The position numbers and the translations under genes are program-made. The notes below the pieces were generated by a model. That model had not been told where the DNA came from. It did not search any database and worked only from the letters and a program-made list of their open reading frames with translations. A stretch of DNA of 64,000 nucleotides from Pyrococcus kukulkanii (GTDB taxonomy: Archaea > Methanobacteriota_B > Thermococci > Thermococcales > Thermococcaceae). The number at the start of each line of letters is the position of its first letter. Positions within the stretch are counted from its first letter, which is position 1. Of this stretch, positions 21,899 to 38,329 are shown piece after piece. The DNA is taken from positions 62,001 to 126,000 of the forward strand of contig NZ_JARRIB010000004.1 of NCBI RefSeq assembly GCF_041647995.1, read 5' to 3'.

Positions 21899-21932
21899 AT
21901 CCATCACCTCTTAAAGAAAACCCTGCAGTGTT

Positions 21933-22145: not shown

Positions 22146-22592
22146 TCACCAACCTCCCTGCCCCCAGCCTCTTCCTCTTCCCATCCCTCTACCCATGCCT
22201 CTTCCCATGCCACGACCCCTGCCTCTTCCTCCACCTCCCTGACCCATTATCGCCTGTGTAAGCTCTCCTCTCAGGTAAGCCTCAATGGCCTCCTTTACTG
22301 TCATCGTTGGTGGTGCCGAGACGAACTTCATGCCCGCTGCCTGAAGAACACCATATGAGTTCGGCCCAAATTGGCCTGCTATTACAACATCTGCTCCCTG
22401 GTCAATGCAGAACTGTGCGGCTGTAACTCCCGCCCCCCTTGGCTGTGAATAGCCCGGGTTTTCCACTACCTGAACGTTGACTATGTTCCCGTTTTCGTCT
22501 ACATCAACTATCGTGAACGTTGGTGTTCTTCCAAACGCTTGGTTCACCCTGTCGTTTAATCCCCCATTTATAGTTGCCACTATGAACCTCAT
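22146..22592 (-). CDS. NifX/NifB-family dinitrogenase iron-molybdenum cofactor-like protein with a Gly-Arg-Met tail
   Basis: 148 residues. The first 110 form the NifX/FeMo-co-binding fold (MRFIVATINGGLNDRV, AFGRTPTFTIVDVD, GADVVIAGQFGPNSYGVL). The last 38 are a low-complexity tail of GRGMGRGM repeats ending WGQGGW. Proteins of this family bind metal-sulfur clusters and are often encoded beside MinD-like ATPases with ferredoxin inserts, which here lie 14 kb away and share the same operator. There are no nitrogenase genes in view, so a role in some other Fe-S cluster or metal cofactor is inferred. Confidence 0.85.
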   Translation of the reverse strand: MRFIVATINGGLNDRVNQAFGRTPTFTIVDVDENGNIVNVQVVENPGYSQPRGAGVTAAQFCIDQGADVVIAGQFGPNSYGVLQAAGMKFVSAPPTMTVKEAIEAYLRGELTQAIMGQGGGGRGRGRGMGRGMGRGMGRGRGWGQGGW

Positions 22593-22612: not shown

Positions 22613-22626
22613 TTAGGTGAGCCTAA
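22613..22626 (-). promoter_or_regulatory. Palindromic operator TTAGG-n4-CCTAA before the NifX-like gene
   Basis: TTAGG TGAG CCTAA, a perfect five-base inverted repeat, lies 21 bases upstream of the ATG and just downstream of an AT-rich TATA-like stretch (AAATTTAAATTA on the minus strand). The same palindrome occurs at 37301-37314 and 38316-38329. It resembles DtxR/IdeR-type metal-regulator sites; the regulator is not in the window. Confidence 0.7.
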
Positions 22627-22815
22627 TTTAAATTTTTGCTCACGCACACTTGTGAACGGAATAAAATAATGGAATAGCCACTTACTTAGGAAAAGTGCCT
22701 TTTAATGAGTTTTCAATAGGAGAGAGTGGTGTTCTCTGATAAAAAGGAGATGCCTCAAGGGAAGTTAGGGTATAATTCTAAAGGAATAAGCTTTCTAGCA
22801 TGAGTCTAAAAACTC

Positions 22816-22998
22816 CTAGTGGGAAAAGTCTGCCCAAGCGATAACCTTCAACTTGAAGAAGTCTTGATTAACGCCAGGATTCAAGGTTGTGAAAATTATA
22901 GTCTCACTGGCCGTTAAATTCAAGAGAAAGATTAGATGGAAGTTGAAATTCAAGCCTAAACTTAGCCACTCTAGCTCTTTCTGGCCATAGATGGTGTT
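22816..22998 (-). pseudogene. Relic of a C-terminal protein segment in an otherwise gene-free stretch
   Basis: The 560 bases between 22627 and 23186 hold no intact gene. On the minus strand one frame is open for 60 codons and reads like protein (YGQKELEWLSLGLNF, then SETIIFTTLNPGVNQDFFK and a natural-looking end VIAWADFSH before TAG). There is no start codon at its upstream end, where a TAG interrupts the frame. It is probably the tail of a decayed gene of unknown family. The rest of the stretch shows only AT-rich sequence and the upstream region of the next gene. Confidence 0.4.
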
Positions 22999-23198
22999 CT
23001 AATAGTTAACCAAGATATAAGTCTTTAAATTGTTTCATTTCATTCCCTCAAGAGGGAGGTCTTCGAAGAAAATGTATTATAAATCTTTTGGAATATTGTT
23101 ACAAGGAAAACTAAGGAAAAGAATAAATAATATGGAACGCTCGTTTCATGAGGGATCCTCAAATATAAGTTTTAAAAACTCACAGTATGGTGAGTAGC

Positions 23199-24308
23199 AT
23201 GAAGAAAATATTTAGTACTATTTTAGGCCTATTGTTACTGATCAGTATAGTTCCTTTGACCATAGCCCAGATCTATAGTGAAGAAGAGGAGTTGGCCACG
23301 GCCTTAATAAAGAACCTTGAAAGGTTGAGTAAATTCGCTGAAAATAAAGTAGAACTAGTAAGGAATGAATTTGATGAGATAACCATTGAAAACTATGAGG
23401 TGGCAGAGAGGTATAAGGAAGAAGCCTTAAACGCGTACAATGCAGGAGGTTACGAAAAGGCTATTGTCAATGCCTTGCTTGCAATGCGTCACTATAAGGT
23501 AGTTCTGTCTTCAATAAAAGAGTTTAGACGGGGATACCAAGATTTAAGGATGGTTGTAGAGAGGACACTTGAATACTTTAACTTCGTCAACAGAACTATA
23601 AGAATTGCTCAAGAAAATGGGATAGAGGTTTTCAACTTGACTAAACTTTTCAACGAAACTAAAGAGGCCTATAGAGTTGTTCTTGATGACATCAAGGCCA
23701 AGAATTATGAGAAAGCCAAAGAGGATTTAAAGATAGCAAGGGAGAAGAAGACTCAACTGGATGAGGAGTTAAAGAAAATCAGAAAGGAGTTAGTCTATGC
23801 TAATGCAGATAAGATCGTTAGTACTTTTTTGGAGAGGGGGGAGAAGGGAATTGAGATCGTTGAGAGGGTAATAAATAGTGGCCATCCAGAGCTAGATGCT
23901 ACCTTAACGGAGTTTAAAGAGGTATATGATGAAGTTAAGGATCTCGCCGATCGGGGAAGGTGGCAGGATGCTTTGAAAGTTATTGAAGAAAATAGGGAAA
24001 CTATAGAGAAGTTTCAGAGAGCTGTGAAAATTATCATGCATGGAAAGATCGACATGGAGAAATTCCTTAGGAATGTCAGAGGAAGGATAGAGCGTGATTA
24101 TAGAGCTCTACAAAAGCTTAAAGAAGAAGGAGTCAACACGAGAATCGCAGAGGTTCAGCTTAAAGCGGCAACCCAGGAAGTCATGGTCGGTCTGAGGTTA
24201 CTTAAGAAAAGAAGGCCCATAGAGGCAAAAACTCACTTCATCTTAGCTCAGGAGCTCTTAAGCAGAGTAGAGAAGTTTATAGCAAAGTATGGGGGGATGA
24301 ATGGGTGA
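23199..24308 (+). CDS. Secreted alpha-helical protein, partner of a membrane winged-helix regulator (copy 1)
   Basis: About 369 residues. Signal peptide KKIFSTILGLLLLISIVPLTIAQ, then almost entirely charged amphipathic helices with repeated AxxYxxAxxDLxxA-like helical hairpins (for example GGYEKAIVNALLAMRHYK, KAKEDLKIAREKK), so it should be a helical-bundle protein outside the membrane. The ATG at 23199 follows GGTGAG; an ATG 12 bases earlier lacks a site. It overlaps the next gene by four bases. A shorter paralogue lies at 32249-33193 with the same neighbour, so the pair works as a unit. Confidence 0.75.
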   Translation: MKKIFSTILGLLLLISIVPLTIAQIYSEEEELATALIKNLERLSKFAENKVELVRNEFDEITIENYEVAERYKEEALNAYNAGGYEKAIVNALLAMRHYKVVLSSIKEFRRGYQDLRMVVERTLEYFNFVNRTIRIAQENGIEVFNLTKLFNETKEAYRVVLDDIKAKNYEKAKEDLKIAREKKTQLDEELKKIRKELVYANADKIVSTFLERGEKGIEIVERVINSGHPELDATLTEFKEVYDEVKDLADRGRWQDALKVIEENRETIEKFQRAVKIIMHGKIDMEKFLRNVRGRIERDYRALQKLKEEGVNTRIAEVQLKAATQEVMVGLRLLKKRRPIEAKTHFILAQELLSRVEKFIAKYGGMNG

Positions 24309-25120
24309 AAAGGTTCTTTTATTTTTTTCTAATCCTTTCAATATTTCTTGTTCCGATTAGTGCTCAGAGGTTAATAACATTAGTTGTTTTTCCCGATGGG
24401 TATGTTAGAGTTGAATATGAGATAACTCCGAGCAATTATTCTACTCAAATTGTAGTTCCAATATTGGGCGAACACTATGAGGATTTGATTGTAGAAGACG
24501 AGAACGGAGATCCCCTTCAATTTGACGTTTCTAACTCATCAATCATTATTTACCCCACAAATGCTCAGCTGGTTATGGTTTCATATTACACCTCAGACCT
24601 GACAAGCAAGAGAGGAATAGTTTGGACTCTGAACGTTTCACTTGACTCGCCTTTTACCGTGGTATTGCCTAAGGGCTCTATAATAGTTGATTTAAGTGAC
24701 GTTCCTCTTAAGATAGCTGAAAACATGATAAACATGCCTCCAGGGAATCAAAGTATTTCCTACACCATTCCACATGAGGAGATCCATACAAGCCAAGGAA
24801 TTTATTTCTTGTTGGCCACTCTACTCATAGCCGCCATGGTTCTAGGAGTGCATCTCCTAAAAAGTAAAGGAAATAGGCAACTTACAAGGGAAAAATTCGA
24901 GAAAATACTTAATGAATTAGATTTAACAGACGAAGAAAGAAGAGCCTTGCTTTATATCTTCGATAAGGGTGGAAGGTGTAGTCAGGCGGAAGTTAGGGAG
25001 GCAATAGGCATTCCAAAGACCACGGCGTGGAGGATGTTCAAGAGGCTTGAGAGAAAAGGCTTAGTCAAAATCCTTAAGGGAAAGAAGGAAAACTGGATAG
25101 AGCTTAAGTTGGGAAGATAA
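24305..25120 (+). CDS. Membrane-anchored winged-helix transcription regulator (COG2512 type, copy 1)
   Basis: 271 residues. N-terminal signal/anchor, a beta-rich outside domain of about 150 residues, one membrane helix (IYFLLATLLIAAMVLGVHLL, about 166-185), then a cytoplasmic winged helix: RRALLYIFDKGGRCSQAEV, the recognition helix IPKTTAWRMFKRLERKG and the wing LVKILKGKKENWIELK. This is the layout of a one-component sensor that carries a signal from outside to DNA. GTG start overlaps the stop of the secreted helical protein, its likely sensing partner. Confidence 0.82.
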   Translation: MKRFFYFFLILSIFLVPISAQRLITLVVFPDGYVRVEYEITPSNYSTQIVVPILGEHYEDLIVEDENGDPLQFDVSNSSIIIYPTNAQLVMVSYYTSDLTSKRGIVWTLNVSLDSPFTVVLPKGSIIVDLSDVPLKIAENMINMPPGNQSISYTIPHEEIHTSQGIYFLLATLLIAAMVLGVHLLKSKGNRQLTREKFEKILNELDLTDEERRALLYIFDKGGRCSQAEVREAIGIPKTTAWRMFKRLERKGLVKILKGKKENWIELKLGR

Positions 25121-25162
25121 CCTTTTAATCTTACATAGGACTTCCCTCAATAGGTGCGAGAG

Positions 25163-26326
25163 ATGAGGTTCTGCTACCGTTGTGGGATAAGTGAGGAAGA
25201 AGGAGGCCCTCTCATCAATGGCCTCTGTCAAGTGTGCTTTAGAAAGGAGAATCCAATCCTGTTATTGTCCAGCGAGATAAACACAGAGCTCTGCCAGAAC
25301 TGTGGGAGTTACAAGAAGAGGGGGGTGTGGGTTGATCCCAAGAACTATGAGCTCGAGGCTTTGATATTTGAAGTTGCCGAAAATGCCCTTCTCGAGGCCA
25401 TAGAAGACTCACTAGACAAGGTTAAGGAATTTGAAATTGTTGGTTGGGAAGAACTTGGAGAAGTAAGGGAGGTACCCGTGGGAAAGGCCTTCGTGGCCTT
25501 TAGGGTTCTTGACTACCACGTAGAGTACTTCCCGGCCATAATAGTGTATGAGGTAAGGGCCAAGGCTAGGATACATGAGCTTCAAGTCGAGCCCCACGAT
25601 GAAACCGTTACGACTACGGTCTATGTGAGGCAAACCGTCTGTCCAAGGTGCCAGAAGTTTCTTGCCGGCTACTACGAGGCCATCCTGCAGGTTAGAGTTG
25701 AGGATAGGGAGTTTACAAAGGAGGAGAGGGCAGAAATAACAAAGCTCGTCCAAGAGAAGGTCGACGAAATAATGCAGAGGGACAGGATGGGCTTCATACA
25801 GGACACTATAGAGAAGGAGGAGGGAATAGACTTCTACATGGGCTCAACAAGTGCTGCAAGGAAGCTCGCTAATGCGATAAGGGAGAGGTTCGGGGGAGTT
25901 ATAAGCGAGGCCTACGAATTAGTTGGTCTTGACAGGCAGACGAGCAAAGAGGTATACAGGACGAGCGTCACCATTAGACTACCTAAGTTCAGGAAGGGCG
26001 ATGTAGTTGAGGACAGGCATGGAAGAGTGTATAGAGTGGAGAGCGTTGACGGGAAGGGCATGAGGCTCAAGAACCTCGAAACTTGGGAGAGTTATCACTT
26101 CGACTGGAAGACTATAAAGAGGGAGAAGATTGACTTAGTGGAGCACGAGGAGAGGAAGGCACTGCTTATGGGCCAAACTCCAACCGAAGCTCAGTTCATG
26201 GACATGGAGACTTACGAGACCTTCGAGGTTAGGAAGCCCAAAGAAAAGCTTGAAGATGGGGAGGTGTATAAGATAGTGAAGGTTAGGGGCAGGCTATACA
26301 TAAAGGAGAAGGAGGGTAGGGAATGA
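25163..26326 (+). CDS. NMD3-like ribosome assembly/export adaptor homologue
   Basis: 387 residues. N-terminal zinc-binding region with CYRCG, CQVC, CQNCG and later CPRCQ pairs, as in eukaryotic NMD3, followed by the conserved DRMGFIQDTIEKEEGIDFYMGS segment and an OB/SH3-like C-terminus. In archaea the protein is thought to act in 50S subunit maturation rather than export. Its C-terminal sequence FMDMETYETFEV recalls eIF-5A, with which NMD3 shares a domain. Overlaps cutA by four bases. Confidence 0.85.
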   Translation: MRFCYRCGISEEEGGPLINGLCQVCFRKENPILLLSSEINTELCQNCGSYKKRGVWVDPKNYELEALIFEVAENALLEAIEDSLDKVKEFEIVGWEELGEVREVPVGKAFVAFRVLDYHVEYFPAIIVYEVRAKARIHELQVEPHDETVTTTVYVRQTVCPRCQKFLAGYYEAILQVRVEDREFTKEERAEITKLVQEKVDEIMQRDRMGFIQDTIEKEEGIDFYMGSTSAARKLANAIRERFGGVISEAYELVGLDRQTSKEVYRTSVTIRLPKFRKGDVVEDRHGRVYRVESVDGKGMRLKNLETWESYHFDWKTIKREKIDLVEHEERKALLMGQTPTEAQFMDMETYETFEVRKPKEKLEDGEVYKIVKVRGRLYIKEKEGRE

Positions 26327-26625
26327 TAATAGTCTACACAACCTTTCCAGATTGGGAAAGCGCTGAGAAAATCGTGAAGACTCTGCTTGAGGAAAGGTTG
26401 ATTGCCTGCGCCAACTTGAGGGAGCACAAGGCCCTCTACTGGTGGCAAGGGAAGATAGAGGAGGACAAAGAGGTAGGGGCAATACTGAAGACAAAGGACG
26501 AACTCTGGGATGAATTGAGGAGAAGGCTTAAGGAGTTACACCCCTACACGGTTCCAGCGATAATAAAGATAAAAGTGGAGGACGTAAACGAGGAGTACTT
26601 GAAGTGGCTCGTTGAAGAGACGAGG

Positions 26626-26628
<3 letters not shown>
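26323..26628 (+). CDS. cutA: Divalent cation tolerance protein CutA1
   Basis: 101 residues, close to the very stable P. horikoshii CutA1. Conserved motifs: IVYTTFPDWESAEKIVKTLLEERLIAC(A)N, WWQGKIEEDKEV and HPYTVPAI. It forms a trimer that binds copper and other divalent metals. The acidic and basic residue content is very high, as expected of the hyperthermophilic homologue. Cotranscribed with the NMD3-like gene, and followed at once by a C/D-box RNA. Confidence 0.93.
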
Positions 26629-28108
<1,480 letters not shown>

Positions 28109-28960
28109 TCAAATCACCCCCTTCTCCTTCAAGTACTTAAGGTAGAGCTCCTTCGCGAGCTTCTCTTGCTCGACGAATCTGTTGTGGTTTCTGTTAATTG
28201 CATCCTCCCAGTCTATCTTGTGTGCATCGAAAACTGGGCCATCTCTGCACGCGAACTTAACTTTGCCGTCGTAGAGAACCCTACAAGAACCGCACATTCC
28301 CGTTCCATCAACCATTATCTGCCTAACCGTTGCGTAGGTTGGGATTCCATATGGTCTTGTGAGTTCAGCGAGCTTTGCTAAGTTATTCAGTCCTCCGCCT
28401 GCAAAAATTATATCCACTTTGTCTTTCTCAATTAACTCTTTAACTACATCAAGGTAGTGCCCCTTAATCCCCGCAGAACCATCTAACGTCGTCAGATAAT
28501 GTTCATCGGCGACGGATTTTGCCAAGAATTCCTCCGGATACACGTGGTTCTTGTCCTCAAATGTCTGCACCGAGATTGTGTAGTTTCCGGCTTCTTTCAT
28601 GGCCTTAAGTAAGGCATAGTTCTCGGCGTGACCGCAAACCGCATCTGAAGCGAAAACAACGTTTCCATACTCTTTGATCTTTATTGGTTTCCCCAGTGGC
28701 CCCAAGAAGCTGTAAAGTTCGTCTCCAACGTTAAACTCGTAGTAAAGTTGCAAGCTAGTTTTTCCTAGCTTCCTTATGAACATCATGACTCTTCCGTTCT
28801 CAGCCTTGAAGACGGACATTGGAATTCTCTCTCCCTTTTCATGGAGAATGAAGACAACAAACTGTCCTGGTTTCCATGCTCTAGCAACGTGGGGTGCCTC
28901 AACTTCTATCATGTAGTCTATGGGACTGAGATCCCTTTTGGCTGTAATCTTGTACCCCAC
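28109..28960 (-). CDS. sudB: SudB / NfnS-type ferredoxin-NADP reductase subunit
   Basis: About 283 residues. FAD-binding barrel (KPGQFVVFILHEKGERIPMS), NAD(P)-binding domain with IIFAGGGLNNLAKL, and a C-terminal [2Fe-2S] motif MCGSCRVLYDGKVKFACRDGP. The GTG at 28960 (VGYKITAKRD) is spaced six bases from GGAGGTG; an ATG-led extension to 28987 contains that site. Promoter region carries a TATA-like TATAAAC and a SurR-type motif. Partner of SudA. Confidence 0.9.
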   Translation of the reverse strand: MGYKITAKRDLSPIDYMIEVEAPHVARAWKPGQFVVFILHEKGERIPMSVFKAENGRVMMFIRKLGKTSLQLYYEFNVGDELYSFLGPLGKPIKIKEYGNVVFASDAVCGHAENYALLKAMKEAGNYTISVQTFEDKNHVYPEEFLAKSVADEHYLTTLDGSAGIKGHYLDVVKELIEKDKVDIIFAGGGLNNLAKLAELTRPYGIPTYATVRQIMVDGTGMCGSCRVLYDGKVKFACRDGPVFDAHKIDWEDAINRNHNRFVEQEKLAKELYLKYLKEKGVI

Positions 28961-29002
28961 GATGAACACCTCCATTCGTACGAACAATTATGTTCACTAA
29001 AA

Positions 29003-29019
29003 GTTCGCAACCAAAAGTT
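29003..29019 (-). promoter_or_regulatory. SurR-type binding site in the sudBA promoter
   Basis: GTT-CGC-AAC-CAAAA-GTT is an exact match to GTTn3AACn5GTT, the published extended motif of the Thermococcales redox regulator SurR. It touches the minus-strand TATA-like TATAAAC (29017-29023 on the plus strand reads GTTTATA). A second core GTT-TAG-AAC lies at 29043-29051. Position over the TATA element suggests repression when SurR is reduced and release on sulfur exposure; this regulation is inference. Confidence 0.7.
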
Positions 29020-29139
29020 TATACGGATTTCTAAAACCGAAAGTTTAGAACCGCTTTTCTTTCCAAAAAAGATCAATAAAGTCGAGTGTTAGGAGTTAAA
29101 ATTTTTGGAAAAGAGATAACAAAATAGAAAAATTATCGG

Positions 29140-31314
29140 TCACCTGATCTTAGCCCCAAGCTTTACTTCTTTATCGGGCATCAGGAGGGCAACGTTTTCA
29201 CCGTCATCCGCTGCCAGTAGCATTCCCTGACTTTCGATCCCTCTGAGCTTCTTGGGCTCTAGATTGGCAACAACGACCACGTACTTGTTAAGCAACTCCT
29301 CTGGCCTGTAATACTTTTTGAGACCTGCAACTAAGGTTCTAACTTCCCCGCCGAGATCGACCTTAACGACGTAGAGCTTGTCGGCGTTTGGATGATCTTT
29401 AACTTCGATTATCTTTCCAACCCTTAAGTCAAGCTTTGCAAAGTCATCAAAGCTTATATAACCCACTTTTTCTCCCTCCTTTTTCTTTTTCTCCTTCTTC
29501 TCTTTATATCCCAACTTTCTCAAGATTACCTCACTCTCTTCGCCAAGCTTCTCCTTTGCGACCTTGACAACAAGCTCCTTCTTATAGTACTTATCGAGGA
29601 GTAGCTTAGCCCCCTCAGGATTACCCTTTGCCATGAACTTCAGGATGAAGTAGATTATCTGTTCGTCCGTAACTTTCTTGAACAGTATCTCAGGCTTCCT
29701 AACTTGATGTCCTGCAGGAAGCTCCTTAAACTTCCATTCTTTGACTTCATCAAGGTTCAGGAGGTGCCATATCTTCTCTCCGGTATCTGGAAGGAAAGGC
29801 TCGATAAGTATTCCGAGGGCTTTAACTATCTGGAGGGAGATGTTTACTGTGGTTGCGGTCCTCTCTCTGTCCGTCTTTGCAGTCTTCCATGGTTGCTTGT
29901 GGTCAAAGTACTTGTTGCCGAAAGATGCTAGGGCCATTACTCTCTTCAGTGCATCCTTGAATCTGTACTCCATTATAAGCTCTCCAACTTCTTTGAATGC
30001 TCTCTCTATCTCCTCGAACGCCTGCTTATCTAGCTCATCCAGCTCTCCCCTCTCCGGAATAACTCCATCGAAGTACCGGTTGACGAAGGTCATCGCCCTA
30101 TGAACGAAGTTCCCTAAGTTGTTGACGAGCTCCTCGTTAATCTTTGTCTTAAACTCCGCAAAGCTGAAGTCAGAATCCCTAGTTTCCGGCATTATGGTGG
30201 TTAGGTAGTACCTGAGGTAGTCGGCGGGGAAGACATCCAGAAACTCGTGCAACCAGATGGCCCAGTTCCTGCTTGTTGAGAACTTCTTGCCCTCCAAGTT
30301 CAAGTACTCGTTCGCTGGAATGTCGTAGGGAAGGTTCCACTCCGCCTCAACCTCCTCATCCTTGTACTTACCATAGGCCATCAGAAATGCAGGCCAGAAT
30401 ATCGCGTGGAATGGAATGTTGTCTTTCCCTATGAAGTGTATCACCCTAGTTTGCCCGTCAAGGTTAAGCCAGTACTTCTTCCACTCATTCGGTTTTCCAA
30501 TCCTCTTGAAGTACTCCATAGTTATCGAAATGTACCCTATCGGAGCCTCGAACCACACATAGAGAACCTTGCCTTTCATATCCTCTTCATTTAGGGGAAC
30601 AGGAATTCCCCACTCTAAGTCCCTAGTTATGGCTCTATCCTCTAGCCCCTCCTTGATCCATCCAAGAACCATGTTTTTAACGTTGGGCTTCCAGTGCTTT
30701 TCCTCTATCCACTTCTTGAGCCTTCCCTCAAAGTCCTTCATCTTTATGTAGTAGTGGGCTGAGTCTCTGAACGTTATTGGATTCCCACAGATGTTACATC
30801 TCGGATTTATCAGGATTTCTGGAGTGAGAGGTCTCCCACAAACCTCACATTGATCTCCTCTCTGGTTTTCGGCCCCACAGTAAGGGCATGTTCCTATGAC
30901 GAATCTATCTGGCAAGAACATCTTGTCGTGCTCACAGTAGGCTTGCTTTGTGACCTTCTTAACTAGGTGTCCATTTTCCAGCGCTTTGAGGAAGAACTCT
31001 TGGCTTAGTTTATAGTGAACGGGTAATTCGGTTCTTCCAAAGAAGTCGAAGCTTATCTTTGCTCTCTGGAACGTTATCTTTATATGCTCGTGGTACTCAT
31101 CTACTATTTCCCTGGGACTTCTTTTCTCTTTTATTGCCCTGAAGGATATTGGAGTACCGTGCTCGTCTGTTCCGCAGATGAAAACGACTTCTTCCCCTTT
31201 GAGCCTTAGGTACCTTACGAATATGTCAGCAGGTAGATAGGCCCCTGCTAGGTGGCCAGCATGTATCGGCCCATTGGCGTAGGGAAGAGCAGAGGTGACC
31301 ATATAGCGAACCAT
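29140..31314 (-). CDS. metG: Methionyl-tRNA synthetase
   Basis: 724 residues. Class I motifs HAGH (in GPIHAGHLAGAY) and KFSTS (in LEGKKFSTSRNWAIW), a double zinc knuckle (CPYCGAENQRGDQCEVCG and CNICG), and a C-terminal EMAP-II/Arc1p-like tRNA-binding domain beginning near FDDFAKLDLRVGKI. The linker contains a lysine/glutamate-rich stretch (KEKKEKKKKEGEK). Start ATG at 31314 follows GGAGGTGG; an upstream in-frame ATG at 31341 would put that site inside the gene. Confidence 0.95.
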   Translation of the reverse strand: MVRYMVTSALPYANGPIHAGHLAGAYLPADIFVRYLRLKGEEVVFICGTDEHGTPISFRAIKEKRSPREIVDEYHEHIKITFQRAKISFDFFGRTELPVHYKLSQEFFLKALENGHLVKKVTKQAYCEHDKMFLPDRFVIGTCPYCGAENQRGDQCEVCGRPLTPEILINPRCNICGNPITFRDSAHYYIKMKDFEGRLKKWIEEKHWKPNVKNMVLGWIKEGLEDRAITRDLEWGIPVPLNEEDMKGKVLYVWFEAPIGYISITMEYFKRIGKPNEWKKYWLNLDGQTRVIHFIGKDNIPFHAIFWPAFLMAYGKYKDEEVEAEWNLPYDIPANEYLNLEGKKFSTSRNWAIWLHEFLDVFPADYLRYYLTTIMPETRDSDFSFAEFKTKINEELVNNLGNFVHRAMTFVNRYFDGVIPERGELDELDKQAFEEIERAFKEVGELIMEYRFKDALKRVMALASFGNKYFDHKQPWKTAKTDRERTATTVNISLQIVKALGILIEPFLPDTGEKIWHLLNLDEVKEWKFKELPAGHQVRKPEILFKKVTDEQIIYFILKFMAKGNPEGAKLLLDKYYKKELVVKVAKEKLGEESEVILRKLGYKEKKEKKKKEGEKVGYISFDDFAKLDLRVGKIIEVKDHPNADKLYVVKVDLGGEVRTLVAGLKKYYRPEELLNKYVVVVANLEPKKLRGIESQGMLLAADDGENVALLMPDKEVKLGAKIR

Positions 31315-31394
31315 TTTATCCACCTCCTGTTGTGTGGGCATTAAACTTTTCCTTTAATTTAAACATTACGGAGGGTTATTTAGGCGGGAAGAAA

Positions 31395-32252
31395 TTATGT
31401 AAGTTTATGCATATCAATATTCAACTCGACCCAATTCTCTCTTCCTACTTTGTAAACTTTTATTAATCCCATCTGCTCCAGCCTGCGGACCATTCTCCAC
31501 ACAGTTGTCTTTGGAAGGTCAAGGGCTTTTCGAAGGTCTGCTTGACTACTTCTTCCTCCCACATCTAGCAAGTACTTAATTGCCCTTATCTCATCGTCAT
31601 TTAGGTTATATTGTTTTGCGATTTTTCCTATCTTATCTTCAAAGTAAGAGAGTTTGCGTCTTGGCTTTCTTTTCTTCAAGAAGAACGCAACAATAGTAGT
31701 AAACACTAAGGCCATAATTATCAATGGAACTACTTTCCTTAAGGGGAACCTTTCCTCTGCTAATAAACTTGGAAAAGTATAATATATCGTCACGTTTCCT
31801 GGTCCTATTAAGACTGTGTTATTTCCAATTATCCTTATTGGAATGTCCGAGAGTCCAACGATCTCCGCGCCTTGTGGGAGTATTATTTCAGCGGGGGCCC
31901 TAGGTAGGTTCAGATTGAGTGTCCATAAGCTACCCTCATTGGATACTAAGCCGCTCGCTGTATAAATAATCCTTACACGTGTTGAATTACGAGTTTCAAT
32001 GAACAGGGAACTATTCTGGAGGGTATAAGGAAGTCTGTATTTGTCTTCACATACAACTAAAATATCACTAATATTGTTTCCTATTAGGGGCACTCGGATT
32101 AGGATTTCATAATCTTCTGGATATATAATTTCGTCAATAGTAACATTCCCATCTTCCCACACTAGTACCCTTAGTTTGCCTACTATATAGCCGTAGGACT
32201 CTGGGAGAAAAAATGCTCCAAGTAAAATTAGAATTATTAAGAGTCTTTTCAC
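31395..32252 (-). CDS. Membrane-anchored winged-helix transcription regulator (COG2512 type, copy 2)
   Basis: 285 residues, same plan as the regulator at 24305: signal/anchor at the N-terminus, beta-rich outside domain ending in LSDIPIRIIGNNTVLIGPGNV, one membrane helix (VVPLIIMALVFTTIVAFFL), then a winged helix with RAIKYLLDVGGRSSQADLRKAL, recognition helix LPKTTVWRMVRRLEQMG and wing LIKVYKVGRENWVELN. The recognition helices of the two copies differ at only a few positions, so they may bind similar sites. GTG start overlaps the previous stop. Confidence 0.82.
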   Translation of the reverse strand: MKRLLIILILLGAFFLPESYGYIVGKLRVLVWEDGNVTIDEIIYPEDYEILIRVPLIGNNISDILVVCEDKYRLPYTLQNSSLFIETRNSTRVRIIYTASGLVSNEGSLWTLNLNLPRAPAEIILPQGAEIVGLSDIPIRIIGNNTVLIGPGNVTIYYTFPSLLAEERFPLRKVVPLIIMALVFTTIVAFFLKKRKPRRKLSYFEDKIGKIAKQYNLNDDEIRAIKYLLDVGGRSSQADLRKALDLPKTTVWRMVRRLEQMGLIKVYKVGRENWVELNIDMHKLT

Positions 32253-33193
32253 TCATTGTCCCCTCCTGTTCTTGTCAGGTAGTTTATTATTCGTGAGGCC
32301 CTTATAACCCTCAAAGTTGCTATCTCCATCCTTCCGAGTTTTATATCTTCATCTGCGAGTTCTAATTCAGTAATTGCAATATTTCTTAACTCACTTTCGT
32401 TTTCTTTTTTCGCCGCTATCTTGAGCTTTAATATTAACACTTTCTTCTCATCTCTAAGTAGTGCTTTCATAAGGCTAATGTGCATTTCTTCCAATGAGTG
32501 TTGAAAGAGCATCAATGAATCAAGGTTTTTAGTTAATAGAGACAGGGCCTCTATATATCTTCCTTGCTTTTTCAAGTTCTCAGCTTCTTTGAGTATCCCT
32601 TCATATATTGAAGCCTTCTCAATCAAAGCATCTCTACTCTTGTTTTCGGGTAGGGCTACTGCGACTTGGATCGCATATTTAATTGTGCTATTGTACTTTT
32701 GTAATAGTATTACAACTTCTTCCTGAAGATCAGAAAAAGTTTTGGGGCTTATACTCTCTATCTTAGAGTGTAATGAGTTATGGGCAAATTTTAGGCTCTC
32801 TTTGGCTGCTTGGTAATTCCCTTCTTTTAAGTACTCTTTGGAGGAGTTCAGTATCTTTTTGAGGCCTTCATCGTCCAGTATCTCTGCATAATATTCAAGC
32901 CTTTTTATCTCCCCTTCAAGTTTATTTGACTTTTTTACAGGTTTAATAAGTGAGAGCTCCTTAACAACGATTTCCGTTACCATGTTCGATGCTGAGATTA
33001 TTGATTTCGGATCATTAGCAGATTTAAGGATCTCTGATATTTTTTCCGCTGAAGCATGATTTATCGGCTTTATTAGATCATAATTTCTTTTTAAAACCTT
33101 AACTAGTCCATCCCAATCGTATCCCTGGCTTAATGCCAATAAAGGCGACATTAAAAGTACCAAGGTAATCAATATGGATATTTTCCTACGCAT
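32249..33193 (-). CDS. Secreted alpha-helical protein, partner of the membrane regulator (copy 2)
   Basis: 314 residues. Signal peptide RRKISILITLVLLMSPLLALSQ, then helical hairpins rich in Lys, Glu and Leu (GNYQAAKESLKFAHNSLHSKI, GRYIEALSLLTKNLDSLM, KLGRMEIATLRVIRASRII). Shorter than and clearly related in style to the protein at 23199. It is translationally coupled to the membrane winged-helix gene as in copy 1. Divergent from the methyltransferase gene at 33274, with an 80-base shared promoter region. Confidence 0.75.
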   Translation of the reverse strand: MRRKISILITLVLLMSPLLALSQGYDWDGLVKVLKRNYDLIKPINHASAEKISEILKSANDPKSIISASNMVTEIVVKELSLIKPVKKSNKLEGEIKRLEYYAEILDDEGLKKILNSSKEYLKEGNYQAAKESLKFAHNSLHSKIESISPKTFSDLQEEVVILLQKYNSTIKYAIQVAVALPENKSRDALIEKASIYEGILKEAENLKKQGRYIEALSLLTKNLDSLMLFQHSLEEMHISLMKALLRDEKKVLILKLKIAAKKENESELRNIAITELELADEDIKLGRMEIATLRVIRASRIINYLTRTGGDNE

Positions 33194-33273
33194 ATGAAAT
33201 CACCTTGTACCTACCTGATCGTTTATGAACGAATGTCTTAAAAAGTTTTGAAGCTGGAATTAAGGGGAGATAT

Positions 33274-34389
33274 ATGGAGAAGTATGGAGTTATATTTGGA
33301 AAAAATTATGAGCTAAGTCTAATCGAGTTAAAGGCTTTTTCAAGAAGATTTAGGTTAGGGATTAGAATTCTTGAAGAACATCCTGGATCTCCAAATGCTT
33401 CGTACGTTATAATAAAAGCCAAAAGAGACATAGAAAAGTACTTCAGATTTATTGGAGGGTCAATTAAGCTTGTTAGGATAGTCGGAGAGGGATTGGAGGC
33501 TGTAAAATACTTAGAATATGCAAGACTGTTCACGGTAAGCCTGTATGGAAGGGAGGATTGGAGGCTGTGGAGGAAGCTTGGCTCAATGGTTAAAAAAGTC
33601 TTCAAGGAAAAAGATTCGACAAAATTCTTCAAACCAGCAAAAGTCTATGCCATGCCAAGTGAGCTCATACTAAAGGGCTTTCCGGAAACTAAAGACGTAG
33701 TATTCTTTTTTGGAAACGGTGAAGTGCTCGTTGGCGAAACCGTTAAAATTACTAATCCCTTTGAGCTGAAGAAACTTGACGTTGAGAAGCCTGTTGTAAG
33801 GCCTACGATCTCTATCCCTCCAAGGCTTGCGAGAATAATGGTCAACCTCTCCGAGGTCAGGAGGGGAAATGTTCTTGATCCTTTCTGTGGAACTGGGACT
33901 ATAATAATGGAGCTCCTTCTGCAGGGGCTGACAGCCTACGGTAGTGATATCAGCGAGGAGAGGATCAGGGATACAGGGAGAAATGTTGATTGGCTTAGGA
34001 AGGAGTTTAGAGTAAAGCATTCGGCAAGCTTGAGGGTATGTGATGTAAGGAGGTTAAAGAAGTGCTTTAGGACAAGGTTTGATGCGATAATTACCGAGCC
34101 CTACATGGGTAAAGCTCTGAAGACGAAACCAACAAGGAGCGAAGCTACAAAGATAGCTAGAGAGCTTGACAGGCTCTATTATCAGGCCTTCGAGAGCTTT
34201 GCTGATGTTCTAAAGAGAAATGCTAGAGTCATTTTTGTATTTCCAGCATTCAATTTGGCTGAGGGAGGAATATATAGGAGGAACAGACCTTGGCTTGATG
34301 AGCTCGGATTTGAGGTTATAGCTTCCGTTTTGGATAGAGATGGAAAGCATAAGATAGTGAGGGATATCCACGTAATAAGAAAAAAGTAA
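33274..34389 (+). CDS. SAM-dependent RNA methyltransferase (Trm11/TrmG10-like, COG1041)
   Basis: 371 residues. The N-terminal 170 residues are a THUMP-like RNA-binding part; the C-terminal Rossmann domain has SAM motif I NVLDPFCGTGTIIMELLLQG, motif II YGSDISEERI, and motif IV TEPYMGK in place of the usual (D/N)PPY. The IRKK end is natural. The family methylates N2 of tRNA guanosines such as G10. The TEPY catalytic motif differs from TrmG10, so the exact base is open. ATG follows GGGAGATAT. Confidence 0.75.
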   Translation: MEKYGVIFGKNYELSLIELKAFSRRFRLGIRILEEHPGSPNASYVIIKAKRDIEKYFRFIGGSIKLVRIVGEGLEAVKYLEYARLFTVSLYGREDWRLWRKLGSMVKKVFKEKDSTKFFKPAKVYAMPSELILKGFPETKDVVFFFGNGEVLVGETVKITNPFELKKLDVEKPVVRPTISIPPRLARIMVNLSEVRRGNVLDPFCGTGTIIMELLLQGLTAYGSDISEERIRDTGRNVDWLRKEFRVKHSASLRVCDVRRLKKCFRTRFDAIITEPYMGKALKTKPTRSEATKIARELDRLYYQAFESFADVLKRNARVIFVFPAFNLAEGGIYRRNRPWLDELGFEVIASVLDRDGKHKIVRDIHVIRKK

Positions 34390-34390
34390 T

Positions 34391-34414
34391 CAAAAAAAGG
34401 TTCCCTGTGGGAAC
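34391..34414 (-). terminator. Hairpin plus T-run ending the tnpB-relic/RNA unit
   Basis: On the minus strand GTTCCC-ACA-GGGAAC (34400-34405 with 34409-34414) is followed by seven T residues (34392-34398). It sits at the extreme 3' end of the structured GC-rich region and two bases after the convergent methyltransferase stop. Confidence 0.6.
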
Positions 34415-34745
34415 ACCCTCCACACGGTCGCCCGTGCTTCATCGGGCATGGCCAAAAGCACCTTCAAGTGAGGTGTATAAAATTTCAGCCCTAAAGGGCA
34501 AGATTCCCAGCTCACAAATGAGTGAGTGGGATAACTCTCTAAGTTAAAAGGGTCCCTACTCTCACTAATAGGGGAACCCATTTGTCCTTCCGTTTCCGCT
34601 ACCAGTTGTAGTGCAACTGGTGTGGTTGGCTTCGCGCTCCCGCTCACATTGGGGCCACCGGCCGCCTCAGGCGGGAGGTCATCAGCCTTCGGGCCGGACG
34701 GAAACGGTCCCAAAACAAAAGCACACTCAAAACCTAAAAAAATTA
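34392..34745 (-). mobile_element. 3' relic of an IS200/IS605-type tnpB gene
   Basis: The minus strand has a continuous reading frame whose last about 110 codons (from LGFECAFVLGPFPSG through GPKADDLPPEA, PTTPVALQLVAETEG and ending VFPQGTFF) read like the Pro/Ala-rich C-terminal tail of archaeal TnpB proteins, stopping at 34390. Upstream of it the catalytic DED domains and zinc ribbon are missing. GC content is far above the neighbourhood. The assignment to TnpB is from general resemblance, the overlap with structured RNA and the position of the hairpins; it needs a protein search. Confidence 0.45.
34415..34710 (-). ncRNA. GC-rich multi-hairpin RNA (candidate omega/reRNA)
   Basis: Perfect pairings nest in order: a nine-base closing stem CCGTTTCCG/CGGAAACGG (34590-34598 with 34699-34707) encloses ACCAGTTG/CAACTGGT (34601-34608 with 34614-34621), CCGCC/GGCGG with a three-base loop (34662-34674) and GCC-TTCG-GGC (34685-34694). 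A GCCCG/CGGGC hairpin (34430-34447) and the terminator lie further 3' on the minus strand. TnpB elements carry such a guide-RNA scaffold at the gene's 3' end. Which strand is transcribed is inferred from the terminator. Confidence 0.55.
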
Positions 34746-34932
34746 CGATTACAAAAACACATGAATGCAACAAAAGAAACCATCAAAAGAACAGCCTAAA
34801 ACCACTACAATATTTTCCAGCCCTTAGAATTTCAATAGGTCATCTTTGCAGCTCTATAAGTGACTTTGGACTTGCTGATCCCTTAACGGAAGCGGGACTT
34901 ATCCAAGTGACATTTATATCTCTTCCAATCCA

Positions 34933-35152
34933 TCAACTTTCTCGGGGGCAGGAAGTTTTGTAAATTTCATTGCGTGTCATTGCATTGGTGGGCTCGGCTC
35001 GGGTTTCCGTCAACGGTAGGGCGATGAAACCCTCGGTGACGAGGTTGAGTTGTTGCCGTGAATCCTCAGAATCGCCGTGATGACTGCCTTGTATCACAAC
35101 AATACAGGACGGGAGAACGGTTCCTTGGTAAATGCATAAACAGAACTCTTGA
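34933..35152 (-). mobile_element. Second tnpB-like 3' relic with GC-rich hairpins
   Basis: On the minus strand a frame ends SRQQLNLVTEGF, IALPLTETRAEPTNAM, TSCPRES, stop at 34933. The segment GFIALPLTETRA is matched by GFTTLPLTETQA in another relic on the plus strand at 40805-40855, so both derive from one protein family, probably TnpB. Hairpins include CCTCG-GTGA-CGAGG (a GNRA tetraloop, near 35030) and TGTAT/ATACA near 35090. No start, no catalytic part. Between the two relics (34746-34932) nothing coherent is seen. Confidence 0.4.
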
Positions 35153-35199
35153 ATCTTCATTGATAGCCTTAGGTAATCATTAACTGTCTCGAACTTTTA

Positions 35200-35258
35200 G
35201 GGGAAAGGCAGAGCAAGCTCAACTGGAGGAGCCTCAACTTTAACTAAGCCCTTTCCCC
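35200..35258. repeat. Inverted repeat GGGGAAAGG / CCTTTCCCC
   Basis: Nine-base perfect arms at 35200-35208 and 35250-35258 separated by 41 bases. It lies between mobile-element relics and may be the end or a hairpin of the same decayed element. Confidence 0.5.
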
Positions 35259-35321
35259 AGGATATGACTCTCTAAAGAGTTTTAGAAGTTTTCTTTATGC
35301 TTCATGGGAGGAATAAAACCC

Positions 35322-35480
35322 TTATGCCCCCCTTCGAGCGTGCTTAGCTAATTTCCCGTAGTACTCAACCTCCTCTCCCTCATTGAATGTTACATAGTTG
35401 AGGATCTCTTTGGGAGAGATTATTTATCCTTAAGTGCCTCAATAACCTTCTCCATGTGCTTCCTAAGCTTAGCTCTCAGC
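35322..35480 (-). pseudogene. Relic of a small gene
   Basis: Two adjoining minus-strand frames look protein-like: KHMEKVIEALKDK ending at 35420, and, one frame over, PKEILNYVTFNEGEEVEYYG then KLAKHARRGA ending at 35322. Together they suggest the end of a decayed gene with a frameshift. No start codon or ribosome site fits. Family unknown. With the relics before it, this makes 34390-35520 free of intact genes. Confidence 0.35.
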
Positions 35481-35524
35481 AATTAGACACATCTAAAAAG
35501 ATTTTTTGAAAAGAAGCTTTAAAA

Positions 35525-36415
35525 TCATTTTATTATCTCCTCCTTTATCGTCTCCGCTATCTCCCTTATTGCCTGTGATGCCTTTGACTCTGGAAATACC
35601 TCAATGAATGGCTTAAGCATCGACATGCTCTTCGGAATGGCGGAGTCGTAAGGTATCTCGCCTAAGACGGGAATTCCCTCCTCCTCTGCCCATTCCCTAA
35701 GCTTCGTGAACCCAGGATTTATGTCGGCCTTGTTTATTATCAGGTAGGCAGGCTCGTGGAAGTGTTGGACGACCTTGTAAACCCTCTGAACGTCGCTCAG
35801 CGAGGCTGGAGTTGGCTCAGCTATTAGAATTGCTACGTCGGCCCCTCCAACGCTCGCTATCACCTGACAGCCGATTCCTGCAGCTGAATCAACTATCATA
35901 TGCTCTAGGTTTTGCTCCTTCATTATCTGCTTGGCCCACTCCTTCTCCTCTGTAACCAGCTTACCGCTCTCGGGCCTTCCTACGTCAAGTTGGGCTGAGA
36001 TTATTGGGAAGCCGTACTTGGTTATAGCCCTCCTTATCACTCCAGAGCGAACCTGCTCCAGCGTTATCGTTCCTGGGACAGGGCACACTAAACCGCAAAC
36101 GTTGCAACCCTCACAGGTGAGCTCGTTAACCACATAGTTTCCTTCATCGTCAACGTAGATGCACTCGTAGGGACACCTCATCTGGCAGATTCCACAGCGG
36201 ACGCACGTTTCCGTGTTAATTCTAGCTATCTTCGCTCCTATGTGCTCTCTCTCCTCCTCCCACTCTGTTACTCCTAGGAGCAAACCCAGGTTAGGGGCCT
36301 CGGCATCTGCATCAACCGCTATTAGCCTGTACTCATCCTTGAGCAGGTAGAGTAAGGACGCTGTAACCGTGCTCTTGCCAACACCACCCTTACCGCTCGC
36401 TATAACTATCTGCAT
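35525..36415 (-). CDS. MinD-superfamily P-loop ATPase with inserted ferredoxin domain (second of pair)
   Basis: 296 residues. Deviant Walker A ASGKGGVGKSTVTA at the N-terminus, Walker B-type IVDSAAGIGC, and between them two [4Fe-4S] ferredoxin motifs CVRCGICQMRCPYEC and CEGCNVCGLVCPVPG. This is the COG1149 type, related to Mrp/NBP35 cluster carriers. It probably loads or inserts a metal-sulfur centre in an ATP-dependent way. Four bases downstream of its paralogue; both under the TTAGG-n4-CCTAA operator at 37301. Confidence 0.9.
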   Translation of the reverse strand: MQIVIASGKGGVGKSTVTASLLYLLKDEYRLIAVDADAEAPNLGLLLGVTEWEEEREHIGAKIARINTETCVRCGICQMRCPYECIYVDDEGNYVVNELTCEGCNVCGLVCPVPGTITLEQVRSGVIRRAITKYGFPIISAQLDVGRPESGKLVTEEKEWAKQIMKEQNLEHMIVDSAAGIGCQVIASVGGADVAILIAEPTPASLSDVQRVYKVVQHFHEPAYLIINKADINPGFTKLREWAEEEGIPVLGEIPYDSAIPKSMSMLKPFIEVFPESKASQAIREIAETIKEEIIK

Positions 36416-36419
36416 TTTA

Positions 36420-37283
36420 TCACCCCCTCAAGAACTCGTAAATCCTCTCAGCAATTCTCCTGAATATCTCAGCTTCGGGATAATCAGTCGTTACAATTGG
36501 AGTTCCAGAAACGTACGTTTTTACGATGTTCTCGCTGTACGGTATCTCCGCTATTACTTTGGCGTTATACCTCTCCGCTCTCCTATAGACCTCGTTAACA
36601 TCACCCAGATTCGCCCTGTTTATCACGACCCAGGTTTCAATTCCCATAAGCTTGCCGAGCTGTAAGATCAGCTCAGTATCGTGGATTCCTAGGGGAGTTG
36701 GCTCAGTGACCGCTATTAAGAGCTGAGATCCCTCGATGGCCTTTGAAACTGTATTCCCTGTTCCTGCAGCTGTATCAACTATCAAGATCTCGTAGTCAAG
36801 GTTTTTGAGCCTCTTCTTAGCGGCAACTACTAATGGCATTGACCTCTCTTCTCCCTCCCTGAGCTTTCCGGTCACGAGGGTGAAGCCATAGGGGGTTGGC
36901 GTAACGTACGTGTGACCAATAAGCCTTGAGCCTTCCTGAATTGCTCCAGGAACTGGACAGACTATCTCACAGGCCCTGCAGCCCGAGCACAGTGTGGGCA
37001 TTAGGAAGGGCGTTCCGTCCTTCAGGGTTATTATAGCGTGCTCCTCACAGACCTCCGCGCACTTCCTGCACTTTATGCACTTTGAATAGTCGAACTTTGG
37101 CATGAACTGGTTTACCTCCTCCTCGTTCTGCAGCTCAACCCCTAAGAGGAGGTGATCATTTGGAGCCTCAACGTCTAGGTCAGCCAAGATAAGCTTAAAT
37201 TTCTTCGCGAGTTCAACCGCAACGTTTATGGCAACTGTTGATTTGCCTGTTCCACCCTTTCCACCGCTTATCGCTATCTGCAT
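36420..37283 (-). CDS. MinD-superfamily P-loop ATPase with inserted ferredoxin domain (first of pair)
   Basis: 287 residues. Walker A ISGGKGGTGKSTVAIN, ferredoxin motifs CIKCRKCAEVCEEHA and CSGCRACEIVCPVPG, switch motif ILIVDTAAGTGN. About 40 percent of positions appear to match the downstream paralogue by eye, so the two likely form a heterodimer. ATG preceded by GGAGGTGAGGAG. Homologous pairs are commonly encoded with NifX-like proteins, which in this window is the gene at 22146. Confidence 0.9.
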   Translation of the reverse strand: MQIAISGGKGGTGKSTVAINVAVELAKKFKLILADLDVEAPNDHLLLGVELQNEEEVNQFMPKFDYSKCIKCRKCAEVCEEHAIITLKDGTPFLMPTLCSGCRACEIVCPVPGAIQEGSRLIGHTYVTPTPYGFTLVTGKLREGEERSMPLVVAAKKRLKNLDYEILIVDTAAGTGNTVSKAIEGSQLLIAVTEPTPLGIHDTELILQLGKLMGIETWVVINRANLGDVNEVYRRAERYNAKVIAEIPYSENIVKTYVSGTPIVTTDYPEAEIFRRIAERIYEFLRG

Positions 37284-37300
37284 CTCCTCACCTCCGAGAA

Positions 37301-37314
37301 TTAGGTCAGCCTAA
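37301..37314 (-). promoter_or_regulatory. Palindromic operator TTAGG-n4-CCTAA before the MinD-like pair
   Basis: TTAGG TCAG CCTAA sits 18 bases upstream of the ATG and next to a TATA-like TTTTAAAAATATT on the minus strand. Same arms, same spacing and same position relative to the gene as at 22613, with the shared flanking text CACCTCCGAGAA on the plus strand. Confidence 0.75.
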
Positions 37315-37357
37315 TATTTTTAAAATTTGTGCGTATGCTCAAATCTGTTTAATCTGA

Positions 37358-38302
37358 TCAAACCCTAGACCTAAGCTTCCTCATATAGAACTTTACACCG
37401 TTGTACTCGAGCTCAATTAGCTTACCCTCTCTAATTAGCTTCTCAACTACATCCCAGGAAGCATTGGCCTTCCTAAGTAGTTCTCTAACTGCATCTTCTC
37501 TCATCGGGTGAACCGCTGTTATTGAAAGTATGTCCTCCTCAACGTTGCCCGTGAACGCGAAGGCGTTGCCTTCGTACCCTATTAGGTATTCAACGTTTTC
37601 GGGTCCAATGGCTTCGCTGAAGAGCTGGTATGCTAGGTGAATAACTTCCTCACTCGCCGGTTTGACCCATTTTTCTGCTGGGGGCCTCGTCGGGATTGCG
37701 ACGTAAGCTTTGTCGGGCTTTAGCTCTTTCAGGAACTCTGCGATTCTTTCAAGCTCATTACCGTAGTCTATGTTTATCAGCATCGTTTCCGTAACAACGA
37801 CTCCTGAGAATTCGTCCCTTAACGTGAGCATTCCCTCCAAAATTCTCTCCAAGCTTAGGGACTTGTGGGGTCTGTCAACTTTCCTCCACACTTCCGGGGT
37901 TACCGCGTCAAGCTTCAGTGAGATGAAGTCAAAGCTCATCAAGTCCTCCCTTACGTCCTCCCTCCAAACGAGGGATGAGTTAGTTAGAATGGCCAGCCTT
38001 ATTCCGAGGTCTTTGAGCATCTCAGCTTCTTTCCCCAGGTTAATGTCTAGGGTTGGTTCTCCATCAGGAACGAAGGTTATGTAATCTATCCTTTCCCCTT
38101 TTTCCAGGGCTTCATTTACCTTCCTTTCAACGTCCTCCACTATCTCCTTGGGATCGTAGAATTCCTGCCTCTCAACCTGCATCTTTATCGTCCTTCCGAT
38201 CTGGCAGTAAACGCAAGCATAACTGCAGACCTTGTCCGGAATGTTGTTCACTCCGAGGCTCTTCCCAAGCCTCCTTGATGGCACGGGACCAAAGGCTATC
38301 AT
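37358..38302 (-). CDS. Radical SAM protein (COG0731-like) with C-terminal winged helix
   Basis: 314 residues. CSYACVYCQIGRT is the [4Fe-4S]-SAM motif; DGEPTLDINLG and the LKLDAVTPEVWRKVDRPH segment complete the half-barrel seen in radical SAM proteins of the wybutosine/MoaA-like group. Residues from about 245 (ITAVHPMREDAVRELLRKA) form a winged-helix tail. Substrate unknown. Same operator as the MinD pair and the NifX-like gene, so a shared metal-cofactor role is plausible. ATG follows GGTGGT. Confidence 0.85.
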   Translation of the reverse strand: MIAFGPVPSRRLGKSLGVNNIPDKVCSYACVYCQIGRTIKMQVERQEFYDPKEIVEDVERKVNEALEKGERIDYITFVPDGEPTLDINLGKEAEMLKDLGIRLAILTNSSLVWREDVREDLMSFDFISLKLDAVTPEVWRKVDRPHKSLSLERILEGMLTLRDEFSGVVVTETMLINIDYGNELERIAEFLKELKPDKAYVAIPTRPPAEKWVKPASEEVIHLAYQLFSEAIGPENVEYLIGYEGNAFAFTGNVEEDILSITAVHPMREDAVRELLRKANASWDVVEKLIREGKLIELEYNGVKFYMRKLRSRV

Positions 38303-38315
38303 ACCACCACCAGAA

Positions 38316-38329
38316 TTAGGTTCGCCTAA
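38316..38329. promoter_or_regulatory. Palindromic operator TTAGG-n4-CCTAA between divergent genes
   Basis: TTAGG TTCG CCTAA lies 14 bases upstream of the radical SAM gene (minus) and about 105 bases upstream of the small frameshifted gene on the plus strand. Third copy of the palindrome in this window. Confidence 0.7.

Follow-up and report, generated by a model that had tools for sequence, protein, structure and literature searches.

A stretch of 64,000 nucleotides from Pyrococcus kukulkanii (contig NZ_JARRIB010000004.1, positions 62,001 to 126,000; hereafter the window) raises the question of what acts on a palindrome, TTAGGN4CCTAA, that stands in front of genes for a NifX-like protein, a pair of MinD-like ATPases and a radical SAM protein. 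We call this palindrome site A, the NifX-like gene issA2 and the ATPase genes mrp1 and mrp2. The best overall explanation, which we consider probable, is that DtxR acts at A and that a second regulator, likely DUF134, acts at a second palindrome, B. Perfect copies of A number exactly three in the window, at 22613-22626, 37301-37314 and 38316-38329, where the original prediction had found them, and its statement that the 64 kb hold no other copy is correct for exact matches; one-mismatch copies at 26229, 32099 and 47598 are at chance level (6 matches in total against 3.3 expected). All three perfect copies sit on the upstream side of minus-strand genes, and each begins a few bp past a TATA box. 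The predicted placement near the start codon holds, and its range of 14-21 bases is corrected to a measured 13-20 bp. The promoter elements are as follows.

22613..22626, minus strand: predicted operator A of issA2, DtxR-type, TTAGGCTCACCTAA on the coding strand, ending 20 bp before the start codon
22627..22632, minus strand: TATA box TTTAAA of issA2, conserved among issA2 promoters
22635..22648, minus strand: predicted operator B of issA2, a degenerate copy, TGTGCGTGAGCAAA, upstream of TATA and overlapping the transcription factor B recognition element (BRE)
37301..37314, minus strand: predicted operator A of mrp1-mrp2, TTAGGCTGACCTAA, ending 17 bp before the start codon
37318..37325, minus strand: TATA box TTTTAAAA of mrp1
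37328..37341, minus strand: predicted operator B of mrp1, TGAGCATACGCACA (with flanks, TTTGAGCATACGCACAAA), upstream of TATA and overlapping the BRE
38316..38329, minus strand: predicted operator A of the radical SAM gene, TTAGGCGAACCTAA, ending 13 bp before the start codon
38335..38339, minus strand: TATA box TTATA of the radical SAM gene

Could these copies be chance occurrences, or a general promoter element? Across the whole home genome (2.05 Mb, nine contigs) the exact motif occurs 14 times and the reversed pattern, our control, twice. A scan of related genomes, as the original prediction had suggested, gave 985 forward and 258 control matches in 94 Thermococcaceae genomes, with a forward excess in 91 of the 94. 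Several of the 14 genomic copies do probably reflect chance (for example a copy beside a CRISPR array, L004, and those at L002 and L009), as such an account would have it, but the excess over the control and the conservation of the same genes and the same positions leave it a negligible probability. The location just past TATA and the recurrence of the same genes across genomes bear out the proposal that the sites are promoter operators.

The genes governed by A were compared in seven genomes from two genus groups (Pyrococcus, and the group holding Palaeococcus) by clustering the proteins that start just downstream of a site. The mrp1-mrp2 operon, the radical SAM gene and feoA(B) recur as targets in 7/7 genomes, issA2 and the gene for a ZnuA-like metal-binding protein in 6/7, and another NifX-family gene in 5/7. 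Because the same genes carry A across the seven genomes, the regulon exceeds three operons, and what had been described as a small three-gene regulon extends over the genome, as an iron regulon with no fewer than seven conserved operons. The dtxR promoter carries an A site 12-18 bp before the start in 30 of 30 genomes (29 with one mismatch, one with two), and shuffled dtxR upstream regions come within one mismatch of A in only 3 of 600 cases. In four Pyrococcus genomes the gene for a TPR-repeat protein (G000:C1:565701) likewise carries a perfect A site; we know of no link between this protein and iron.

Which protein recognizes A? A structural study of IdeR proposes a shortened DtxR/IdeR consensus of 14 bp, TTAGGNNNNCCTAA, bound by one dimer (PMC8464063), and site A is identical to it, so that the likeness of its arms to DtxR/IdeR sites, noted from the window alone, extends to the whole single-dimer consensus. 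The home genome encodes a single protein with the DtxR metal-binding (C-terminal) domain, with PF01325 and PF02742 over cut-off in this one copy. This protein aligns best with MntR, but a Cys replaces the MntR Glu in the 'EGIEHH' metal motif, and Cys at this position is the DtxR-like state of the family. Work on Pyrococcus furiosus (Zhu 2013) is the reference given in PMC12827226 for control of iron acquisition by DtxR, and in PMC8516115 for repression of feoAB by this protein. Since the consensus is identical, the genome holds one DtxR and A is found at feoA and dtxR, DtxR very probably binds A as its operator. The A part of the system is a new regulon of the known DtxR kind: it shares with DtxR/IdeR regulons the identical operator, the sites at feoAB and at the regulator's own gene, and the Cys at the MntR-Glu position, and differs in its archaeal BRE/TATA promoters, in a short two-domain protein closest in sequence to MntR, and in having iron-sulfide storage and trafficking genes among its predicted targets.

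The window genes behind these promoters are the following.

22146..22592, minus strand: issA2, encoding a 148-residue IssA-like protein with a Nitro_FeMo-Co/NifX domain at residues 13-107 and a Gly/Arg/Trp-rich tail
35525..36415, minus strand: mrp2, encoding a second MinD/ParA-type ATPase with a ferredoxin insertion, in the same operon as mrp1 with a 4-bp gap
36420..37283, minus strand: mrp1, encoding an Orp3/Orp4-like MinD/ParA-type ATPase with an inserted two-[4Fe-4S] ferredoxin domain (PF10609, PF01656, PF14697)
37358..38302, minus strand: radical SAM gene, encoding 314 residues (PF04055, E=2e-19)

The issA2 product matches PF02579 (IPR003731; E=8e-22), MTH1175 (E=5e-18) and Orp (E=3e-12), and its basic Gly/Arg/Trp-rich C-terminal tail reads RGRGRGMGRGMGRGMGRGRGWGQGGW. 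MTH1175 is its closest solved relative, and an IssA-type protein from the source organism of MTH1175 has been used to model P. furiosus IssA (PMC5524996). The NifX equivalog model TIGR02663 gave no match to the issA2 product, and another paralogue (L007) scored 33 bits against it, below the 112-bit cut-off. On its sequence, then, the 'NifX-like' window gene is an issA paralogue and not NifX proper. Four IssA/NifX-type proteins are encoded in the home genome; the true issA lies elsewhere in it (L017), and issA2 adjoins issA in many Thermococcaceae. IssA is the sulfur-induced iron-sulfur store of Thermococcales, which holds thioferrate and whose tails have been described (PMC5524996). The issA2 product shares the NifX domain and the Gly/Arg/Trp-rich tail with IssA/SipA of P. 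furiosus (PF2025; PMC5524996), but it is a separate, shorter paralogue, about 40% identical, with the opposite operator order, and its storage of thioferrate is putative.

The mrp1 and mrp2 products each have a MinD/ParA P-loop and two [4Fe-4S] motifs and are encoded as a pair, which is kept in loci L244-L248. They resemble, and would group with, Orp3/Orp4-type and Mrp/Nbp35 ATPases; Orp3 and Orp4 are themselves MinD-type ATPases with two [4Fe-4S] motifs (PMC6345978). The Orange protein (ORP) complex of Desulfovibrio (Orp3/Orp4, MrpORP; PMC6345978) likewise combines paired MinD-type [4Fe-4S] ATPases with NifX-family proteins, but the Desulfovibrio operons are controlled by sigma54, whereas the Thermococcaceae have DtxR-type and B sites. 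No NCBIfam model scored over cut-off for the radical SAM protein.

These identities bear on an earlier model in which A marks an isolated operator set for genes that assemble an unknown metal-sulfur cofactor. The site is indeed common to NifX-family, radical SAM and ferredoxin-ATPase genes, and their domains also occur in nitrogenase-linked families; but the same site stands at feoAB, dtxR and the ZnuA-like transporter gene, and an IssA-like protein with a Gly/Arg/Trp tail fits a thioferrate store better than a cofactor enzyme. We regard this model as very improbable. Cofactor building is unsupported, with the NifX-like protein falling in with IssA and the ATPases with Orp3/Orp4 and Mrp/Nbp35; the broader grouping of the genes in metal-sulfur metabolism can be accepted.

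A second palindrome, B (TTTTG[AT]GC-N4-GC[AT]CAAAA; symmetrised consensus TTTTGTGCATATGCACAAAA), was first seen upstream of TATA in mrp1 promoters, and recurs at issA2 and, in reverse order relative to A, at issA. The original inventory of the three window promoters was right about the A sites and missed this conserved operator in two of the three; the radical SAM promoter in the window is without a B site. The issA2 copy in the window has 3 mismatches to TGTGCNTATGCACA, and better copies are found in most other genomes. Counted as one promoter per genome, the order is B-TATA-A in 28/28 mrp1 and 26/30 issA2 promoters, and A-TATA-B in 29/30 issA promoters, 27 of them at a fixed 26-27 bp. Site A is present with at most one mismatch in all 28 orthologous mrp1 promoters, at -29 to -31, and issA2 promoters almost always have an A-type site at -33 to -36 (with at most one mismatch in 28/30). 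Of the two operators, the one upstream of TATA overlaps the BRE and the one downstream overlaps the expected transcription start. As far as we have searched the literature, paired A and B operators in mirror order are new.

The B core, GCNTAYGCACAAA, gives 1-5 matches per genome in nine Pyrococcus genomes and 0 in the reversed control; these fall at issA, mrp1, a CDF efflux transporter gene and a third NifX gene, and at a SipB-like gene in one genome. So small a number of matches rules out B as a general promoter element. At the CDF cation-efflux transporter gene (G000:C1:129535), a possible iron exporter, the B site lies just before the start codon and is conserved in several Pyrococcus genomes. 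An Nbp35/ApbC-type ATPase gene (G000:C1:422273) also has a near-perfect B site, about 100 bp upstream. As a separate observation on A, its TATA-proximal half is often TTCGG or TTTGG and not TTAGG (in the issA2, mrp1 and dtxR promoters of many Thermococcus loci); with TTCGG the half-site is altered in the same way as in the issA site read on the opposite strand.

What, then, recognizes B? Our candidate is DUF134 (UPF0251; PF02001), a family with a helix-turn-helix like that of sigma-70 region 4, which is linked to NifX and MinD/Mrp genes in both bacteria and archaea. DUF134 is encoded in 85 of the 94 Thermococcaceae genomes (one copy in 84, two in one). Of the 79 genomes that contain both it and issA2, 56 have the two genes no more than 15 kb apart. 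At four Lentisphaerota/Victivallales loci a palindrome, GCATATGC, stands where transcription of the DUF134 gene is predicted to begin; at one of them (L074) this gene heads an operon with NifX, MinD, Mrp and a closing gene of the metallo-beta-lactamase (MBL) fold. DUF134 genes of Bathyarchaeota, a Heimdallarchaeon and Desulfarculaceae also have related palindromes upstream, and in several cases outside Thermococcales the DUF134 gene is followed by, or lies near, NifX genes. A weight matrix built from thermococcal B sites only was scored against shuffles of the DUF134 upstream regions at 13 loci, and gave a combined Fisher p=7e-7, with 6 loci at p<=0.05 and 5 at p<=0.01; the sites found belong to Bathyarchaeota, a Heimdallarchaeon, Desulfarculaceae and a Lentisphaerote. 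As controls, neither the reversed matrix (p=0.14) nor any of five further windows taken from these loci (p=0.23-0.92) gave a significant score. The lineages in this comparison are few and were reached through mrp homologues, and some of the loci share one genome. We moderately favour the view that B belongs to one regulator, most likely DUF134.

Several results count against this assignment. Seven of the 13 distant DUF134 loci are without a significant B-like site, and in four draft genomes (G062, G064, G067 and G082) no DUF134 was found and the B sites are intact. The strict bacterial form, TTTGAGCN4GCTCAAA, was matched in 3 of 60 genomes from the class of the Desulfarculaceae, one of them the source, against 3 for the control. 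Because the matches equal the control and both new ones fall inside reading frames, neither at a DUF134 or NifX gene, the exact bacterial form does not generalise. In the thermococcal DUF134 promoter a B site was looked for and none was seen, so that this promoter gives no sign of autoregulation of thermococcal DUF134 through B. The absence of B from this promoter and its retention in the draft genomes would both suit another regulator of B, such as an unrecognised sulfide sensor or the PPC/DUF296-like protein, whose gene adjoins DUF134 in the home genome and lies close to the cluster in other genomes. B-like palindromes nevertheless precede DUF134 genes in unrelated archaea and bacteria, several of them near NifX genes, and we consider another regulator possible but doubtful. 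The PPC/DUF296-like gene, assigned by eye, is divergent from DUF134 (L274:1809-2264, plus strand) and encodes a second candidate DNA-binding protein at that locus. Our literature searches gave no function or operator for DUF134, and the proposed operator is new as far as they reach.

How might DtxR at A and DUF134 at B work together? Iron-bound DtxR on A, just downstream of TATA, would repress feoAB, dtxR, the radical SAM gene, the ZnuA-like transporter gene, mrp1-mrp2 and issA2. The genes that handle iron sulfide carry the second putative operator, in the order B-TATA-A at mrp1-mrp2 and issA2 and A-TATA-B at issA, the thioferrate store. Sulfide would deplete free Fe2+ and so lift the DtxR repression of uptake and trafficking genes, and repression of the store (issA) and the CDF pump through B would be relieved by sulfide or an Fe-S signal. 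Position may then set the sign, with B repressing issA and the CDF pump and helping mrp and issA2, and iron-DtxR repressing mrp and issA2 and permitting or helping issA; we offer this tentatively, as a possibility a little short of even. With the same reserve, DUF134 could be an unrecognised regulator of iron-sulfide handling common to archaea and bacteria, with TTTTG[AT]GC-N4-GC[AT]CAAAA as its operator, which together with DtxR forms in Thermococcales a mirror-image two-operator switch that responds to free iron and sulfide by driving storage (issA) one way and mobilisation (mrp1-2, issA2) the other.

Published expression data can be set beside this scheme. In Palaeococcus pacificus, elemental sulfur (S0) raises SipA/IssA by log2 6.23, the adjacent FeMo-co binding gene by 4.29 and a 'CobQ' Fe-S pair by 3.74 and 3.41; these are four of its five most S0-induced genes, and feoAB also goes up (PMC6981617). 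We infer that the four are issA, issA2, mrp1 and mrp2. In genome G002, which from gene order we take to be that of P. pacificus, mrp1 and feoA carry A, and issA2 has B and no A with up to one mismatch. T. onnurineus likewise shows a rise of SipA, SipB and an Mrp/Nbp35 protein (PMC4463584), and sulfide induces issA/SipA only under sufficient iron (PMC5524996). DtxR is mentioned in none of these three papers, and the regulator behind the sulfide-plus-iron control of issA is unnamed in the literature examined.

The same data must be weighed against a simpler arrangement in which DtxR and the B factor are plain repressors everywhere, the order of A and B is neutral, and the genes come on when both leave, at low free iron and with the B signal. 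It is here that the mirror-order scheme meets its difficulties: the operator roles at these promoters are predicted and the setting of sign by position is a rule of thumb, 4 of the 30 issA2 promoters deviate from the two-site layout, both upstream sites overlap the BRE, so that both could simply repress (the downstream sites lie at the expected transcription start), and the joint rise of issA, issA2 and mrp with S0 in P. pacificus also fits double repression (PMC6981617). Neutral turnover would not, however, be expected to keep the order so strictly for each gene across genera (29/30, 26/30 and 28/28), and the iron requirement of issA induction by sulfide is the opposite of repression by iron-DtxR. 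Because issA induction requires iron, activation from the upstream sites is favoured, and double repression seems to us rather unlikely. The comparison yields two conserved operators, exactly defined, for each promoter; it names DtxR as a strong candidate for the regulator of one and the widespread DUF134 family as a candidate for that of the other, and offers an explanation for the joint S0 induction of iron uptake, IssA, IssA2 and the MinD-ferredoxin pair.

Two neighbouring genes deserve mention. Near the radical SAM gene, a DUF4213/DUF364 gene for putative heavy-metal chelation lies at 41075-41812 on the plus strand, and in another genome (G005) a relative of it and the radical SAM gene point away from each other, with the same A site between them. 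Downstream of issA2, a gene of the MBL fold occupies 21095-21907 on the minus strand of the window, and a similar gene follows issA2 in L244.

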